NCBI GenBank assembly: GCA_946535225.1 | Contig: CAMNDJ010000004.1 | Coordinates: 1 to 62,750 of the forward strand | DNA from: an uncultured Lachnospiraceae bacterium | GTDB lineage: Bacteria > Bacillota > Clostridia > Lachnospirales > Lachnospiraceae | Direction: 5' to 3' | Length of the DNA stretch: 62,750 nucleotides | Part shown: positions 38,766-47,857 of the stretch, piece after piece | Layout of the letters: each line of letters opens with the position of its first letter | How positions within the stretch are numbered: the stretch's first letter is position 1 | Notes under the pieces: generated by a model | Database searches by the model: none | Seen by the model: the letters and a program-made list of their open reading frames with translations, nothing else | Told to the model about the DNA's origin: nothing | Position numbers and translations under genes: made by a program

Positions 38766-39779
38766 ATGGCAAATAATTTCTTTGGTATTGATATAGGTAC
38801 CAGTAACATCAGGATCTACAATCAATTGGACAACAGCATATTCATGGAGAAGAACATGATAGCCATCGAGAACGGCAATGTGCTGCTTGCATACGGTGAT
38901 TCCGCTTTTGATATGTATGAAAAAGCTCCGAGTTCGATCGTATCGAGCTTTCCGGTGATAAACGGAGTCATAGCAGACATAAGCAATATGGAGACATTGC
39001 TTAAGCTGTTTATAACCGATCTGTCCAAAGGCAGTTTAAAACCTGCGGATTACGTTATAGCGGTCCCAACTGATGTTACCGATGTGGAGAAGAGAGCGTT
39101 TTATGATCTTGTCGAAGATGCGGGCATAAAGGCACATAAGATACATGTCGTCGAAAAAGCTATAGCAGACGGACTCGGATGCGATATAGACGTCAAGAAT
39201 TCACAGGGTGTGATGATAGTCAATGTCGGTTATTCAACGACTGAGATCTCGATACTTTCACTCGGAGGCATAGTGCTCAGCAGGATCGTGAAGATCGCCG
39301 GCAAACAGTTCGATGAAGATATCCGTAATGCCGTTCGTAAAGAATTCAATCTCTTTATCGGAGAAAAGACAGCGGAGAGGATCAAGATAAGTATGAAGTC
39401 GCTTATAGAATCCGGAGAGAACATTGTATGCTACGGTCGAGATATTGTAAGCGGACTTCCGATGGAAAGAGAGATCCCGCCCGAGATACTCGATACCAAT
39501 CTGCGCGATTCGTATGCACAGATAATAGACTGTGTCAAGATGGTCCTTGAGAGGACTCCTCCGGAGCTTGGCGCCGATATATACCGTCACGGACTTTATC
39601 TGACAGGAGGCTCTTCGCAGATATATAATCTGGCGAATCTGATCTCGGATGCGACCGGCCTTAAGGTAAATATGAGTGAAGACCCAATAGACAGTGTCAT
39701 CATGGGTATCGCCAAGGTCATCAACGAGGATAAATACCGTAAACTTGCTTACTACATAGAGGGAATGAGCGGCCGATGA
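38766..39779 (+). CDS. mreB: MreB/Mbl-like rod-shape protein, divergent nucleotide site
   Basis: FFGIDIGTSNIRIY, NVGYSTTEISILSLGGIVLSR, FNLFIGEKTAERIKI; followed by mreC, mreD. Confidence 0.9.
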   Translation: MANNFFGIDIGTSNIRIYNQLDNSIFMEKNMIAIENGNVLLAYGDSAFDMYEKAPSSIVSSFPVINGVIADISNMETLLKLFITDLSKGSLKPADYVIAVPTDVTDVEKRAFYDLVEDAGIKAHKIHVVEKAIADGLGCDIDVKNSQGVMIVNVGYSTTEISILSLGGIVLSRIVKIAGKQFDEDIRNAVRKEFNLFIGEKTAERIKISMKSLIESGENIVCYGRDIVSGLPMEREIPPEILDTNLRDSYAQIIDCVKMVLERTPPELGADIYRHGLYLTGGSSQIYNLANLISDATGLKVNMSEDPIDSVIMGIAKVINEDKYRKLAYYIEGMSGR

Positions 39780-40663
39780 GTCCTTTGATCAAGAAGAAAA
39801 GGGAAAAGTACACACTTCCTAATCGATATATACTGCTGATCCTTACGATCGTCTGTGTGATATTGATGATCCTTTCGTTTTCAACAAACATTCTGTCCAT
39901 TCCGTTAAACACGATAAGCGGTTATACGCTTGTTCCGTTTCAGAAGGGATTGAATGCCGTGGGTACTGCGCTCATAGACAGGGCTCAGAATCTGAAGACA
40001 CTTGAGCAGGTGACTAACGAGAATACTGAGCTTAAGCGACAGATAGCGGAACTGACCAAGGATAATACACTGTTGCAACAGGACAAGTATGAACTCACCA
40101 AGTTAAGGGAACTGTATGATCTTGATGCGGAATACGAAGAATACGACAAGATCGGTGCAAGGATAATCGCCAGAGATTCCGGCAACTGGTATTCGGGTTT
40201 CATCATCGATAAAGGAGCGGATGACGGAGTTATGGTCGACTGCAATGTCATAGCGGGAAGCGGCCTGGTAGGAAGAGTGACAGAGGTCGGACCGAATTAT
40301 GCAAAAGTCGTCTCCATCATATCCGACAATGCCAATACGAGCGGAATGATACTGTCTACGGGCGATCTTCTGATAGTTACCGGTTCGTTAAGACTTATGG
40401 ATATGGGAGTGATAGAATACAGCCAGCTTGTGGATCCCGAATCAACTGTCGGTGTGGGAGATAAAGTCGTAACATCGAACATCAGCGACAAGTATCTTGA
40501 GGGAATACTCATAGGTTATATCGATACTGTCAATTCTGATTCGAATAACCTCACTAAGTCAGGCACCCTGATACCGGCAGTCGATTTCAGACATCTTGAG
40601 GATGTTCTGGTCATAACGGATCTTAAGAATATTCCGGATATTTCCGGAGACAGAGAGTATTGA
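39776..40663 (+). CDS. mreC: Rod shape-determining protein MreC
   Basis: N-terminal TM, coiled coil, KIGARIIARDSGNWYSGFIIDKGADDGV, position. Confidence 0.93.
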   Translation: MSPLIKKKREKYTLPNRYILLILTIVCVILMILSFSTNILSIPLNTISGYTLVPFQKGLNAVGTALIDRAQNLKTLEQVTNENTELKRQIAELTKDNTLLQQDKYELTKLRELYDLDAEYEEYDKIGARIIARDSGNWYSGFIIDKGADDGVMVDCNVIAGSGLVGRVTEVGPNYAKVVSIISDNANTSGMILSTGDLLIVTGSLRLMDMGVIEYSQLVDPESTVGVGDKVVTSNISDKYLEGILIGYIDTVNSDSNNLTKSGTLIPAVDFRHLEDVLVITDLKNIPDISGDREY

Positions 40664-40670
40664 TACGGTT

Positions 40671-41186
40671 ATGAATTTTATTGCTGCATTTTTATTCATG
40701 TTCATAAGTTTTTTGCTGCAGTCGACATTGCTGTCACAGTTTACCATCGGCGGGATCACACCGAATCTCCTGGTCATCGTGACGGCTTCTTTGGGTCTTA
40801 TACTGGGCAGGAGATACGGGATGATATCAGGGTTTGTGGGCGGACTGTTCGTTGATATATTCTTCGGACGCATTCTCGGCGTTTATGCGCTTTTGTACAT
40901 GCTCATCGGATATCTGAACGGCTTCTTTAGAAAGATACTGTTTTCGGGTGATTTCAAACTGCCGATCACCCTCATAATCGGCAGCGATATCGCCTTCGGA
41001 CACGGATGCTATCTTTTGATGTTCTTTTTTAAAGGGGACTTCAATTATCCGTTTTATCTTACGGGCATAATACTGCCGGAGGTCATATATACGACTATAA
41101 TAGCCATATTCTATTTTCCGTTCATCAAATTTGTATTTGATAAGATCCGGCACTTCGAGGAAAAGGACATAGAGACCATTGTATAG
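40671..41186 (+). CDS. mreD: Rod shape-determining protein MreD
   Basis: Small polytopic protein, GLILGRRYGMISGFVGGLFVDIFFGRILGVYALLYMLIGYLNG, position. Confidence 0.9.
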   Translation: MNFIAAFLFMFISFLLQSTLLSQFTIGGITPNLLVIVTASLGLILGRRYGMISGFVGGLFVDIFFGRILGVYALLYMLIGYLNGFFRKILFSGDFKLPITLIIGSDIAFGHGCYLLMFFFKGDFNYPFYLTGIILPEVIYTTIIAIFYFPFIKFVFDKIRHFEEKDIETIV

Positions 41187-44085
41187 AAGGATACAGGATA
41201 ATTTCATAAATTCAACGACCGGTCGAACTCTGGTGCTCGGTATATTCTTCGTGATCATCACCGTGGTCCTCTGCGCAAGGATATTCATTCTTCAGATAGT
41301 CAGAGGCCAGGATGCGCTTGATAATTTTACATTGAGCATTCAGAAGGAAAGAGTCATAGGATCGACACGCGGCAATATATATGACAGGAACGGCAATGTG
41401 CTCGCATACAACGAGCTTGCTTACAATGTCACGATGGAGGATGTATATGAGTCGGGTCGAAACAGAAACAAGAACTTAAATGACACACTTATGAAGACTA
41501 TTGCCATCGTTGAGAGTAACGGTGATCATACTATCGGTGACTTTAACATCATCCTAAATGAAGATGATGAGTATGAATTCACTCTTTCCGATACGAGACT
41601 GAAAAGATTCATTGCCGATGTTTACGGGCGCAAAGCCATAAGTGATCTCAAATATGAAGAAGAGACATCGACGCCTGATGATATCATTGATTATCTGTGC
41701 GGATACGGCAAATTCGGCATAGGTGAATCAACCGATCCCGAGAATCCCAGAGACAGTTTTGTCATAGGTAAAGGTTATACCAAGAGGGAGATCCTTAAAC
41801 TGGTAAACATCCGATACGCCATGAACCTCAATTCTTATCAGAAGTACATCCCCACGGTCATAGCGACGGATGTCAATGAAAGAACCGTAGCCACCATAAT
41901 GGAGAACAGCGATATCCTCATGGGTGTGGCCATAGAAGAGGACAACATCCGCAAATACAATGACAGCATATATTTCTCGCAGATAATAGGTTATACGGGT
42001 AAGATCTCGGAAGAAGAGATCTCAACATACAACAATCTTAACAGCGGAAGTGAACTTTCAGATACGGTCAAGCCCAGAAATGACTATATACTGACGGACA
42101 TGGTGGGCAAGGCCGGTATCGAGCAGGCGATGGAGACTTATCTTCAGGGTGTCAAAGGCAGCGAGACGGTATACGTTAATAACTTGGGTAAGGTGATAGA
42201 GAGCAAAAAACTTGTCGATCCTCAGGCCGGAGATGATGTATACCTTACGATCGACAGGGACCTTCAGATGGCGGTATACAATATATTAGAGCAGAAACTT
42301 GCAGGCATCCTGGTATCCAAGATCCAGAATGTCAAGGAGTATGATCCGCCGGAGGGAACTGCGGCCAGCAAATACATAATCCCCATAACTGATGTATATT
42401 TTGCGCTGTTTAATAACAGCATAATAGATATCGATCATCTGGGCGATAAGAAGGCAAAAGAGAACGAGACTAAGATATATGAGGCCTTTTTGGACAAGCA
42501 GGAAAGGGTGTTTGGCAAACTGCGAAGTGAGCTTGAAGATGTCAGGACTCCGTATAATGAACTCAGTGAGGAGTATCAGATATATGAGAGCTTCATCGTA
42601 TCAATGTTAGTCGAAAACGGTGTCATCAAGGATTCAGAGATCGATAAAGATGACGAGACCTTCATCGCATGGCGAGAAGAAGAGACCATAAGTCTTGCGC
42701 AGTATCTGGATTTTCTTATAGCGCATAACTGGATCGATGCGACTAAGATAGATCTTGACAGTCAGTATTCGTCATCTACCGAAGAATATGCAAGGCTTAT
42801 AGATTATATCATCGAGCATTTATCGGACAGCCGCTCCTTCTCAAAGAGGATGTATAAATACATGATCCGTAATGACGAGATCACGGGATATCAGATCATC
42901 GCCACATTGCTTGAACAGGATGCCATATCGATAACGGATGAAGAGCAGAAGAAATTCTACGGAAATGTTCTTTCGTCGTACAATTTCATGCTGTATCTGA
43001 TAGAGAACCTGTATATAACTCCGGCACAGTTAGCTTTAGATCCTTACTCAGCTTCTTCCGTGATAACCGATATGAACGGCGACGTACTCGCGCTGGTCAC
43101 TTATCCCAGTTATGACAATAACAGACTGGCCAACAGTATTGATTCTGAGTACTATGCCAAGCTTCAGAACGATCTGTCCAAGCCTCTGTGGAATTATGCA
43201 ACGCAGCAGCGTACTGCACCCGGATCAACGTTTAAGATGGTTTCAGCCACGGCCGGACTTGAAGAAGGTATAATCAATACTGCATCGACCATATCCTGCA
43301 AGGGCTATTTCGACAGATTCGAAAACGAAATGTATAAATGCTGGATATATCCCGGTTCTCACGGTTCCTTAAACGTGACCGGAGGAATAGAGAATTCCTG
43401 CAACTCTTTCTTCTACGAGATAGGTTACAGACTCTCTCTTAATGAGGCCGGTAATTATGATGATGAACTCGGACTTGAGAAACTCGCCAAATATGCGGAT
43501 CTGTACGGTCTGACCGACAAGTCCGGTATTGAGATCGAAGAATCCGAACCCGGAGTTTCCGATGAATATCCCGTTCTTTCGGCGATCGGTCAGGGTACCA
43601 ACAACTATACCACGGTCGGACTTGCCAGATATGTCATGACGGTGGCAAATAACGGTACATGCTACGACCTTACCCTGCTTGATAAAGTGACCGATCTAAA
43701 CGGCAATCTTATCATGGATTATGAGCCTTCGGTCCGTAATATTATCGATATGCCCAGTGCGTATTGGAATGCCATTCATACGGGTATGAGAAGGGTGGTA
43801 TTAAAGAAGGCATATTACAACGATCTGGGTGTTAATGTAGCAGGCAAGACAGGTACGGCACAGGAGAATAAGAAGAGGGCCAATCATGCGCTTTTCGTAA
43901 GTTATGCGCCATATGAGAATCCGGAGATCGCCGTGGCTACCAGAATAGCTTTCGGCTATTCATCGGATTTTGCCGCCAATACCACTCGTGACATATACAA
44001 GTATTACTTCAAGCTTGAAAATGAAGATGAGATAGTAACGGGAACGGCCGAGATCCCTGATGCGGAAATGTCTGCCGGAGACTGA
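41179..44085 (+). CDS. mrdA: Penicillin-binding protein 2-like transpeptidase (TTG start)
   Basis: N-terminal TM, RGNIYDRNGNVLAYNE, PGSTFKM (SxxK), NSCNSFFYEIG (SxN), GKTGTAQE (KTG). Confidence 0.93.
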   Translation: MYRRIQDNFINSTTGRTLVLGIFFVIITVVLCARIFILQIVRGQDALDNFTLSIQKERVIGSTRGNIYDRNGNVLAYNELAYNVTMEDVYESGRNRNKNLNDTLMKTIAIVESNGDHTIGDFNIILNEDDEYEFTLSDTRLKRFIADVYGRKAISDLKYEEETSTPDDIIDYLCGYGKFGIGESTDPENPRDSFVIGKGYTKREILKLVNIRYAMNLNSYQKYIPTVIATDVNERTVATIMENSDILMGVAIEEDNIRKYNDSIYFSQIIGYTGKISEEEISTYNNLNSGSELSDTVKPRNDYILTDMVGKAGIEQAMETYLQGVKGSETVYVNNLGKVIESKKLVDPQAGDDVYLTIDRDLQMAVYNILEQKLAGILVSKIQNVKEYDPPEGTAASKYIIPITDVYFALFNNSIIDIDHLGDKKAKENETKIYEAFLDKQERVFGKLRSELEDVRTPYNELSEEYQIYESFIVSMLVENGVIKDSEIDKDDETFIAWREEETISLAQYLDFLIAHNWIDATKIDLDSQYSSSTEEYARLIDYIIEHLSDSRSFSKRMYKYMIRNDEITGYQIIATLLEQDAISITDEEQKKFYGNVLSSYNFMLYLIENLYITPAQLALDPYSASSVITDMNGDVLALVTYPSYDNNRLANSIDSEYYAKLQNDLSKPLWNYATQQRTAPGSTFKMVSATAGLEEGIINTASTISCKGYFDRFENEMYKCWIYPGSHGSLNVTGGIENSCNSFFYEIGYRLSLNEAGNYDDELGLEKLAKYADLYGLTDKSGIEIEESEPGVSDEYPVLSAIGQGTNNYTTVGLARYVMTVANNGTCYDLTLLDKVTDLNGNLIMDYEPSVRNIIDMPSAYWNAIHTGMRRVVLKKAYYNDLGVNVAGKTGTAQENKKRANHALFVSYAPYENPEIAVATRIAFGYSSDFAANTTRDIYKYYFKLENEDEIVTGTAEIPDAEMSAGD

Positions 44086-44190
44086 TGCTGTGCACAGATC
44101 GCCGTTATCGGACAGCACATATCGGGGTGTCGATCAAAGCCTGCATTTAAGAGGCGGATCTTCACGGAGTGTTCATCATGGAGGAACAGT

Positions 44191-44865
44191 ATGATAGTTA
44201 TCAAGAGTTACAAGGGCGGAATAGCTCTCCATCTTAACGAAGAAGACAGTTTTGAGGATATCCTTGCTGAGATCTCGGAGAAGTTCGAAGAATCAAGGAA
44301 GTTTTTCAGGAACGCTTCTCTTGCTCTGTCTGTAGAAGGAAGGCACTTAAGTGTGGAAGAAGAAAAAGCCGTTATACAGACGATAGATGAGCATTCCGAT
44401 GTAAACATCCTTTGCCTTGTCGGTAAGAATGAGGAGACCGATCGCAATTTCGTCAAGGCTCTTAAACGTATAGAGATGCAGCGTGAAGAGAATAACGGAA
44501 GATTTTACCACGGCGATGTATGTGACGGTGAAGTTGTTGAGAGTGAAGGGTCGCTTGTGATCATCGGCAACGTGAAGGCGGGCGGAACAGTCGCTGCCGT
44601 CAAGGATGTGATAGTTTTGGGCGATCTGTCCGGAGATGCTTATGCAGGACTGGGTAATGAAGATGAACACTTCATTTTTGCTTCCAGAATGAACCCGCAT
44701 CTGTGTAAGATCGGATCTTTAAGCTATAACCATACATCGGGCAAGGGACTTTTCGATAAGAAAAAGAATATTCCGTGTATTGTATATCTTAAGGACGGCG
44801 AGATCTTTAGCGATGCAGTCGGACCGGAGGTTATTGAGAGTATAGAGAATGCTTCGACAATATAA
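44191..44865 (+). CDS. minC: Septum site-determining protein MinC (RSGQ motif absent)
   Basis: C-terminal beta-helix GSLVIIGNVKAGGTVAAVKDVIVLGDLSGDAYAGLGN; position before rodA. Confidence 0.9.
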   Translation: MIVIKSYKGGIALHLNEEDSFEDILAEISEKFEESRKFFRNASLALSVEGRHLSVEEEKAVIQTIDEHSDVNILCLVGKNEETDRNFVKALKRIEMQREENNGRFYHGDVCDGEVVESEGSLVIIGNVKAGGTVAAVKDVIVLGDLSGDAYAGLGNEDEHFIFASRMNPHLCKIGSLSYNHTSGKGLFDKKKNIPCIVYLKDGEIFSDAVGPEVIESIENASTI

Positions 44866-45973
44866 ACTTAAGAATTACAATTTCAAATTGATAGCCTTTG
44901 TGATAGCCCTGTCGTTTATCGGTTATTTCGCCATAGGCAGTGCCAAAGAGTCCGTGCAGTCAAGGCAATTGTACGGAATACTCATAGGCATAATCGCGAT
45001 GGTCATAGTCTCGCTGATCGATTACAATCTCTACGCGAAGGTCAAATGGATATTGTATGGAATAAGTGTCGTCGGTCTGACGCTTGTTCTCATATTCGGT
45101 GTCGAGGTCAATCACTCCAAAAGATGGATCAATATCGGCTTCCAGTTTCAGCCTTCTGAGCTGGCCAAGATACTGTTGATTTTGTTCTTTTCACAGTTTA
45201 TTATGAAATACAGGGAGAGGCTGAACACCTTTAAGATCATTGCATTTATGATAATACTGGTTGCCTTTCCGATGTTTCTGGTTTACAAGGAACCCGATCT
45301 TTCAACGACTATCGTGATCGGATTATCCTTCTGTATAATGCTCTTTGTCGGAGGCTTGGAATACAGAACGGTATTCATTGTTTTGGGGACGATCATTCCT
45401 TTGGGTATCGCCTTTTTCAGCATCATCATGCAGGAGGGCCAGACGCTGCTTAAGGAATATCAGGTCATAAGAATACTTGCGTGGTTATATCCGGACAAAT
45501 ACGCTGATTCCGCCGCGTGGCAGCAACGTAATTCCGTTACGGCGATATCGTCGGGAATGCTTCACGGCAAAGGACTGAATAATAACGTTATAGCATCCGT
45601 TAAGAACGGTGATTTCATATCCGAACCGCAGACCGACTTCATTTATGCCGTCATAGGCGAAGAAATGGGATTCATAGGAGCTGTGGCTGTGATCCTTCTG
45701 CTTTTCCTTATATGTTATGAGTGCATGAGGATCGCACATTATTCGGTTGATCTTTCCGGAGCCGTAATAGCTGACGGACTCGGCGGAATGATAGTCGCAC
45801 AGGGTTTTATGAACATAGCGGTTACAACGGGACTGCTTCCCAATACGGGTATCCCGCTTCCTTTTGTGAGCTATGGATTGACTTCGTTAGTCAGTCTGTA
45901 TATCGGCATAGGGGTTGTGCTGAATATAGGGCTACAGGGTGATAAACGCAAAAAGATGACTACAGATGTATGA
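44849..45973 (+). CDS. rodA: RodA/FtsW SEDS-family glycosyltransferase
   Basis: GFQFQPSELAKILLILFFSQFI, PDFIYAVIGEEMGFIGA-like, TGIPLPFVSYGLTSLVSLYIGIG. Confidence 0.95.
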   Translation: MLRQYKLKNYNFKLIAFVIALSFIGYFAIGSAKESVQSRQLYGILIGIIAMVIVSLIDYNLYAKVKWILYGISVVGLTLVLIFGVEVNHSKRWINIGFQFQPSELAKILLILFFSQFIMKYRERLNTFKIIAFMIILVAFPMFLVYKEPDLSTTIVIGLSFCIMLFVGGLEYRTVFIVLGTIIPLGIAFFSIIMQEGQTLLKEYQVIRILAWLYPDKYADSAAWQQRNSVTAISSGMLHGKGLNNNVIASVKNGDFISEPQTDFIYAVIGEEMGFIGAVAVILLLFLICYECMRIAHYSVDLSGAVIADGLGGMIVAQGFMNIAVTTGLLPNTGIPLPFVSYGLTSLVSLYIGIGVVLNIGLQGDKRKKMTTDV

Positions 45974-45985
45974 CGGAGGAATAAG

Positions 45986-46381
45986 ATGAACATTGCGTTG
46001 ATAGCGCACGATAACAAAAAGAAACTGATGCAGAATTTCTGTATCGCTTACAGAGGAATACTCAGCAAAAATGATCTTTATGCCACCGGAACGACCGGAA
46101 GGCTCATAGAGGAAGTGACGAATCTGACTGTCCATAAGTTTTTGGCCGGCCATTTGGGCGGAGAACAGCAGATAGGTGCTCAGATCGAGCATAATCAGAT
46201 CGATCTGGTGATATTCTTAAGGGATCCTCTGACGCCAAAGTCACATGAACCTGATGTGGGTAACATATTCAAGCTCTGTGATGTGCATAATATCCCTCTT
46301 GCCACGAATCTGGCAAGCGCTGAGCTTCTGATCAAATCTCTCGACAGAGGCGATATGGAATGGAGAGAAATGTATAAATGA
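45986..46381 (+). CDS. mgsA: Methylglyoxal synthase
   Basis: [35 protein letters not shown]-like [28 protein letters not shown]. Confidence 0.95.
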
Positions 46382-47337
46382 AAAAACCTTTTGTTTTTTT
46401 CATATCGATCATATATTGTTCGGTCATAGTCTCGGGTTGCGGTAAGAGCGGCCTCCCCATGGATTATAAGGAAACACATACCATCGTATCTACGGACAGG
46501 ATGGATAATTTTGCTACCGGTTTTGCCGCGGATCTTGCCGTAACCGACAGCAATGTGGATGGAGTCACGGGAGCGACGGTAGAAGATACATCTGCAGCGG
46601 GGATATTTGATATAAATCGCAGGAAAGTCCTCTATGCCAAGGATGTGCATGAGAGAATGGCACCGGCTTCGTTGACCAAGGTGATGACGGCTTTAGTTGC
46701 GATCAAGTACGGCAATGCCGAGGACCTTATCACTTGCAGCGAGAATGTTACCGATATCGATTATGATGCGACAAGGATCGGGCTTAAGGCCGGGGATCAG
46801 CTTACGATGAACCAGGCCCTTCATGCGCTTTTAATAGATTCCGCCAATGACGTGGCTATCGCGATAGCAGAACACGTGGCAGGAGATGTCCCCTCATTTG
46901 TTGATCTGATGAACGAGGAGGCTTTGGCCATAGGTGCGACCAATACTCATTTTGTCAATCCTCACGGCCTGACCGATGATGATCATTACACTACGGCATA
47001 TGATTTGTATCTTATCACCAATGAAGCCATAAATTATGAATTGTTTAATGAGATCATCCAGATGCCGGAGTATGAGAGTGTATATAATGACGCTGCGGGC
47101 AATGAAAAGAGCATGAAGTTTAAGACTACCAATCTCTTTTTGCGCGGAGATTACTCGGCACCGAGCAATATGACCGTTATCGGAGGCAAGACCGGTACGA
47201 CGAGCGTGGCAGGCAACTGCCTCATTCTCGTTGTGAGAGATACGCAGGGCAATCCGTACATAGCCGTTATACTCCGTGCGAGTACAAGGGCACTGGTCAA
47301 CGAAGAGATGGCTGATATACTCAGAGAAATATCTTAA
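46378..47337 (+). CDS. D-alanyl-D-alanine carboxypeptidase (PBP5/DacF-like), probable lipoprotein
   Basis: IVSGCGKS lipobox-like; [15 protein letters not shown] (SxxK), [13 protein letters not shown] (SxN), GGKTGTT (KTG). Confidence 0.93.
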
Positions 47338-47437: not shown

Positions 47438-47857
47438 ATGATTCAATTAATCGTAGGCTCTGAAGGCAAGGGCAAGACTAAACATCTGTTAGATAAGGTA
47501 AATGAAGAGATTAAGGAAGCATCAGGTAATATAGTTTTCCTCGACAGAAGTACCAAGCACATGTTTGAACTCAATAACAGAGTTCGTCTCATCAATGTAT
47601 CTGAATACGATTTCGAAAACAGATCCGAGTTTATCGGTTTTATATACGGTATCATCTCACAAGACCACGATATTGAACAAATGTATATTGACGGAATAAT
47701 GAAGATAGCCAAGCTTGATGTTCAGGGCTTTACTGATGTTGTGACCAAGCTTAAGGATGTAAGTGAGAAGTTTAATATCAATATTGTGATAAGCGCATCG
47801 ATCGACCCTTCCGAGGTGGACGCAAGTCTCAAGGAATACGTGATCGTAGCCCTGTAA
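47438..47857 (+). CDS. Small P-loop protein of unknown function
   Basis: Walker A-like GSEGKGKT, strong SD aaggagg, own promoter and downstream hairpin. Confidence 0.85.
   Translation: MIQLIVGSEGKGKTKHLLDKVNEEIKEASGNIVFLDRSTKHMFELNNRVRLINVSEYDFENRSEFIGFIYGIISQDHDIEQMYIDGIMKIAKLDVQGFTDVVTKLKDVSEKFNINIVISASIDPSEVDASLKEYVIVAL

Follow-up and report, generated by a model that had tools for sequence, protein, structure and literature searches.

A minC gene kept under selection without minD and minE in an uncultured Lachnospiraceae bacterium and its genus

In cells, MinC is said to work through its partner MinD. Here, we report that a rumen-type bacterium of the Lachnospiraceae, and with it a whole genus, keeps a selected minC without the usual partners MinD and MinE. 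The gene lies in a stretch of 62,750 nucleotides (hereafter the window), and it is a real, selected orphan minC. The reading that we favour, with somewhat better than even confidence and from comparisons of sequences, is that minC was kept after the loss of minDE and of the basic MinD-contact motif, and that its product is most likely a MinD-independent antagonist of FtsZ linked to the elongasome operon.

The minC homologue is an open reading frame of 224 amino acids (P0001) at 44191..44865 on the forward strand, preceded by a GGAGG ribosome-binding site (44180..44184, +) read from the sequence. An earlier note on this DNA had called the frame MinC and described its C-terminal beta-helix as recognisable. 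We recovered both. The protein exceeds the Pfam gathering scores of MinC_N (50.0 bits vs 27.3) and MinC_C (67.2 bits vs 33.2). The N-terminal, predicted FtsZ-inhibiting domain covers residues 2-78 (44194..44424, +; Pfam MinC_N at residues 2-69), and the C-terminal beta-helix domain residues 105-205 (44503..44805, +; Pfam MinC_C at residues 106-205). An AlphaFold model built on the alignment of the genus MinCs is moderate (mean pLDDT 76, pTM 0.50), i.e. usable for the fold of each domain but not for domain orientation. Its top Foldseek matches are all MinC, its best PDB matches are MinC structures, and its C-domain matches those of E. coli and P. aeruginosa MinC with a TM of 0.87 and an rmsd of 1.8 Å. 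The closest full-length solved relative, by sequence (E 4.6e-10) and also by fold search, is T. maritima MinC (1hf2). The NCBIfam MinC equivalog TIGR01222 matches at 68.5 bits, under its cut-off of 95.25, and the remaining NCBIfam MinC models match likewise under their cut-offs. Hence, we call the protein a homologue of MinC rather than an established functional equivalent.

The gene is part of a forward-strand series that reads mreB-mreC-mreD-PBP2-minC-rodA-mgsA-carboxypeptidase. Pfam matches identify mreB (38766-39779), mreC (39776-40663), mreD (40671-41186) and, directly 5' of minC, a PBP2-type penicillin-binding protein (41179..44085; Transpeptidase and PBP_dimer). Downstream of rodA (44849..45973), profile matches identify mgsA (45986-46381) and a D-alanyl-D-alanine carboxypeptidase (46378-47337), two conserved genes whose order is shared with related loci. 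Where a family member has all three min genes, minC is followed by minD and minE. In the window, the ATG of rodA lies within the 3' end of minC, which closes this slot and leaves no room for minD or minE. The overlap is 17 nt and is also found in nearly all genus members whose sequence spans the junction. This start of rodA inside minC goes beyond the earlier note, as do the absence of minDE from locus and genome and the degeneracy of RSGQ in about half of the MinCs of the family. The conserved (S/T)I ending of MinC was discounted as a functional motif, because the minC-rodA overlap would yield the same ending. Further downstream, 47438-47857 encodes a conserved protein of 139 amino acids with a P-loop-like start and no Pfam match; in most related loci its neighbours are likewise the carboxypeptidase and genes of the HlyD-like kind.

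The search of the genome for minD that the earlier note had proposed returned no clear minD elsewhere. The best MinD match in the window genome, a metagenome-assembled genome (MAG) that is 85.5% complete, scores 94.7 bits against a cut-off of 212.9 and is FlhG; MinE gave no match. This FlhG lies between FlhF and a PilZ-type gene (assignments that are our reading of the sequences), and carries Tyr instead of the D154 of MinD (PEPTSITDSYS vs PEVSAIRDADR in the helix-7 stretch). None of the 20 genomes of the genus has a MinD over the cut-off, and none has a MinE. In five of these genomes, completeness reaches 90% or more with contamination of 5% or less, and the set includes an isolate genome that is 99% complete (G160). 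The genus contains Candidatus Colinaster equi (G150) and the isolate An861, deposited as Lacrimispora saccharolytica (G160), both matched to these named members by locus coordinates and identity. FlhG-like matches occur in 19/20 genus genomes, and one MinC-only genome, G137, which is 81% complete, lacks any MinD-family match at E ≤ 1e-20. Weak MinD matches on C72 and C67 were rejected as MinD, since by eye their sequences look like ArsA-type ATPases.

At the RSGQ MinD-contact motif, the window MinC reads CDGE (residues 111-114; 44521..44532, +), as the earlier note had claimed. These residues align on the RSGQ of T. maritima MinC (1hf2), alignments of 105 family MinCs and of 18 genus MinCs place CDGE in the same column, and a search of the 224 amino acids found RSGQ at no other place. 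To put this in context, we sampled 151 Lachnospiraceae genomes, one per genus, and aligned their MinCs. The exact motif is present in 39/88 MinCs from MinD-bearing genomes and in 0/13 from MinC-only genomes (Fisher test, p = 0.0014, a plain test that ignores kinship). In a phylogenetic comparison of pairs, which set RSGQ against the presence of MinD, too few pairs were informative. Since the remaining 49 of the 88 MinCs with MinD have a degenerate RSGQ, we rejected the rule that loss of RSGQ means loss of MinD. Helix 7 of MinD (PEVSAIRDADR), which contacts MinC, is readable and conserved in 85/87 MinD-type rows, with or without RSGQ in MinC. The motif is thus often degenerate despite MinD and MinE while helix 7 is nearly invariant, which makes it a weak sign when taken alone; the MinC of A. 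aeolicus, crystallised in complex with MinD, carries AGQ in place of the SGQ of RSGQ. The earlier note had argued for MinD independence from the loss of the motif. Independence is well supported, because minD and minE are absent; the motif does not prove it.

The charge of the motif separates the groups further. A basic residue at the position of the motif Arg is found in 0/18 genus MinCs vs 71/88 from MinD-bearing genomes, and the contact motif is net-negative in 17/18 vs 13/88. In the clade of 33 rows that surrounds the genus in the PBP2 tree, all 11 MinD-bearing relatives already lack the exact RSGQ, and nine of them keep a Lys or Arg in first place. On this approximate tree, the pattern suggests that erosion of the motif in the window lineage began before the loss of minDE.

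The gene has been maintained by purifying selection. It is kept in 18/20 genus genomes, the two MAGs without a match being incomplete (74% and 85%), and the clade that carries it has 100% support. Between close pairs dN/dS is 0.02-0.08, and it is at most 0.13 wherever dS is unsaturated. Identities between genus MinCs go down to 43%, and part of the N-domain residues are still invariant. With divergence timed by PBP2 distance (0.3-0.45), the identity of the N-domain is 0.54 both in the genus and in MinD-bearing relatives, whereas C-domain identity is 0.40 in the genus vs 0.60 in these relatives. In path-independent pairs, the difference between N and C identity is +0.07 in the genus vs -0.105 with MinD (p = 4e-4), and the comparison with only the MinD-bearing pairs under a distance of 0.45 gives p = 0.02. 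Hence, constraint in the genus has moved from the MinD-binding C-domain toward the N-domain, and has not been lifted from MinC as a whole.

The MinC-only state has arisen repeatedly in the Lachnospiraceae: on the PBP2 tree, this and the MinD-bearing state require at least eight changes, about four of them forced by strongly supported branches. All MinC-only loci have PBP2-minC-rodA without minDE (for G034, a profile search located minC). The converse also occurs, with MinD and MinE but no minC in 16 genomes of the family (G002, G025, G028, G032, G057, G067, G090, G093, G098, G102, G113, G118, G126, G130, G133 and G136, within L197-L212 plus L055). In these loci PBP2 is directly followed by minD, without a MinC profile match, in 15/15 genomes with a contig across the junction; the contig of G113 stops before PBP2. 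Another genome, G026 (L198), has MinD only.

Some loci have an intermediate content. G091 (L045) encodes a 500-amino-acid open reading frame in which MinC runs on in frame into a MinD-like portion with a disrupted P-loop (GVGRNVGNTS where MinD has GKGGVGKTT). We reclassed this candidate orphan as ambiguous owing to the fusion. The counts 0/13 and 39/88 and the p = 0.02 come from the rerun after this change, while the first family alignment, the first counts on the tree, the pairs with p = 4e-4, the phylogenetic pairs and the motif-charge counts still include G091. G066 (L051), G044 (L052) and G073 (L054) have, in the usual slot and without MinE, divergent MinD-like proteins with about 40% identity to the MinD of the family. 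These three loci may be stages in the decay of Min. Among 293 genomes sampled across the class, a by-eye comparison found MinC without MinD outside the Lachnospiraceae in one genus only (G266, G301 and G317), where MinC_C lies in unusually long open reading frames (360-453 amino acids) and no MinD was found at E ≤ 1e-45.

How could MinC work alone? We propose that the window MinC antagonises FtsZ via its N-terminal domain without being recruited by MinD, and that it acts as a soluble homodimer for which the C-terminal beta-helix would be retained as the dimerisation element. The mreBCD-PBP2-minC-rodA operon may link its synthesis to the elongation machinery, as may translational coupling through the 17-nt rodA overlap. 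The constraint on the N-domain, the lost MinD face and the presence in 20/20 genus genomes of an FtsZ with a conserved C-terminal peptide fit such a MinD-independent antagonist. MinC-N interacts with helix 10 of FtsZ and, when overexpressed alone, inhibits division in the presence or absence of wild-type MinCDE, while MinC-C dimerises and requires MinD for its activity (PMC6803595). Two observations count against this reading. In the absence of MinD, E. coli MinC must be overexpressed 25-50-fold to block division (PMC6803595), and a MinC on its own may therefore have little effect. In addition, the minC of one genus MAG (G159, L124) has an in-frame nonsense codon near residue 56 that is absent from close relatives; this may reflect either a fault in the assembly of this MAG, which is 66% complete, or a real pseudogene. 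A broader scenario, which we find rather doubtful, is that MinC in the genus was rewired from the MinDE gradient to an elongation-coupled regulator of FtsZ that is produced in concert with RodA and whose acidic C-domain face serves a new partner, and that across the family MinC and MinDE would be separable modules, each kept or lost without the other.

The main rival to the lone antagonist is a real but minority possibility: a new partner may have replaced MinD, with FlhG or an elongasome protein encoded nearby recruiting or activating MinC via the altered C-terminal face. There are precedents, since DicB, which is not a MinD, activates E. coli MinC (PMC4967827), and in C. jejuni, which has no MinD, the control of division involves FlhG (PMC12826062). 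The near-ubiquity of FlhG-like proteins in the genus, the conserved minC-rodA overlap and a motif that is consistently acidic rather than randomly altered would also fit a new contact. However, constraint on the C-domain is relaxed, not raised, and we found no candidate partner gene. FlhG in particular is not favoured, given its Tyr at the D154 position and a MinC-only genome (G137) without even an FlhG-level match.

If minC were a relic drifting to loss once minDE had gone, the lower C-domain identity relative to MinD-bearing relatives, the premature stop in G159 and the two incomplete MAGs without a match would be expected. The earlier note had offered drift as one outcome, and we consider it improbable: dN/dS is far below 1, N-domain constraint equals that of MinD-bearing relatives, and minC persists throughout a fully supported clade despite its divergence. 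It is even less probable that minD and minE are present and were missed. The window genome is incomplete, and relatives do have degenerate MinD-like proteins (G066, G044 and, fused to MinC, G091), so divergence could in principle hide them. Yet the nearly complete isolate genome lacks them as do the other members of the genus, and the conserved slot is shut by the minC-rodA overlap.

These results suggest that MinC in this genus has a job of its own. Among the open-licence papers searched, we found no description of an orphan MinC kept after the loss of MinDE. A lineage with purifying selection on a MinC that has outlived MinD and MinE offers a natural test of MinD-independent MinC function, and the genus has a cultured isolate, An861. 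The separation of MinC and MinDE in both directions is relevant to the way in which evolution builds and takes apart division-site systems, and the orphan state bears on the placement of the septum without a Min gradient in bacteria that keep rod-shape genes.

Compared with known systems, the window MinC is closest to the MinC of MinCDE (E. coli, and Clostridia such as C. difficile), with which it shares the MinC_N and MinC_C architecture. In the MinCDE loci of the Lachnospiraceae, minC lies between PBP2 and minD/minE/rodA, and the PBP2 side is the same as in the window. The window MinC differs in having no MinD or MinE, CDGE instead of RSGQ, a net-negative motif and scores under the NCBIfam equivalog cut-offs. 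Of the marks of a MinCDE division-site system, the window genome thus has neither MinD nor MinE nor RSGQ, the last being a weak mark in this family. The absence of MinD also sets it apart from the MinCD-MinJ-DivIVA system of the B. subtilis type. T. maritima MinC differs in having RSGQ, and its genome gives a minD-family match in a control search. E. coli MinC with the prophage protein DicB likewise inhibits division without MinD, but DicB is a separate activator that acts on the C-domain of E. coli MinC, and no such gene was found for the window MinC. C. jejuni, where division control is based on FlhG, is likewise a bacterium without MinD; there the regulator is FlhG, whose role in the window genus is only hypothetical, whereas the window genus instead retains MinC.
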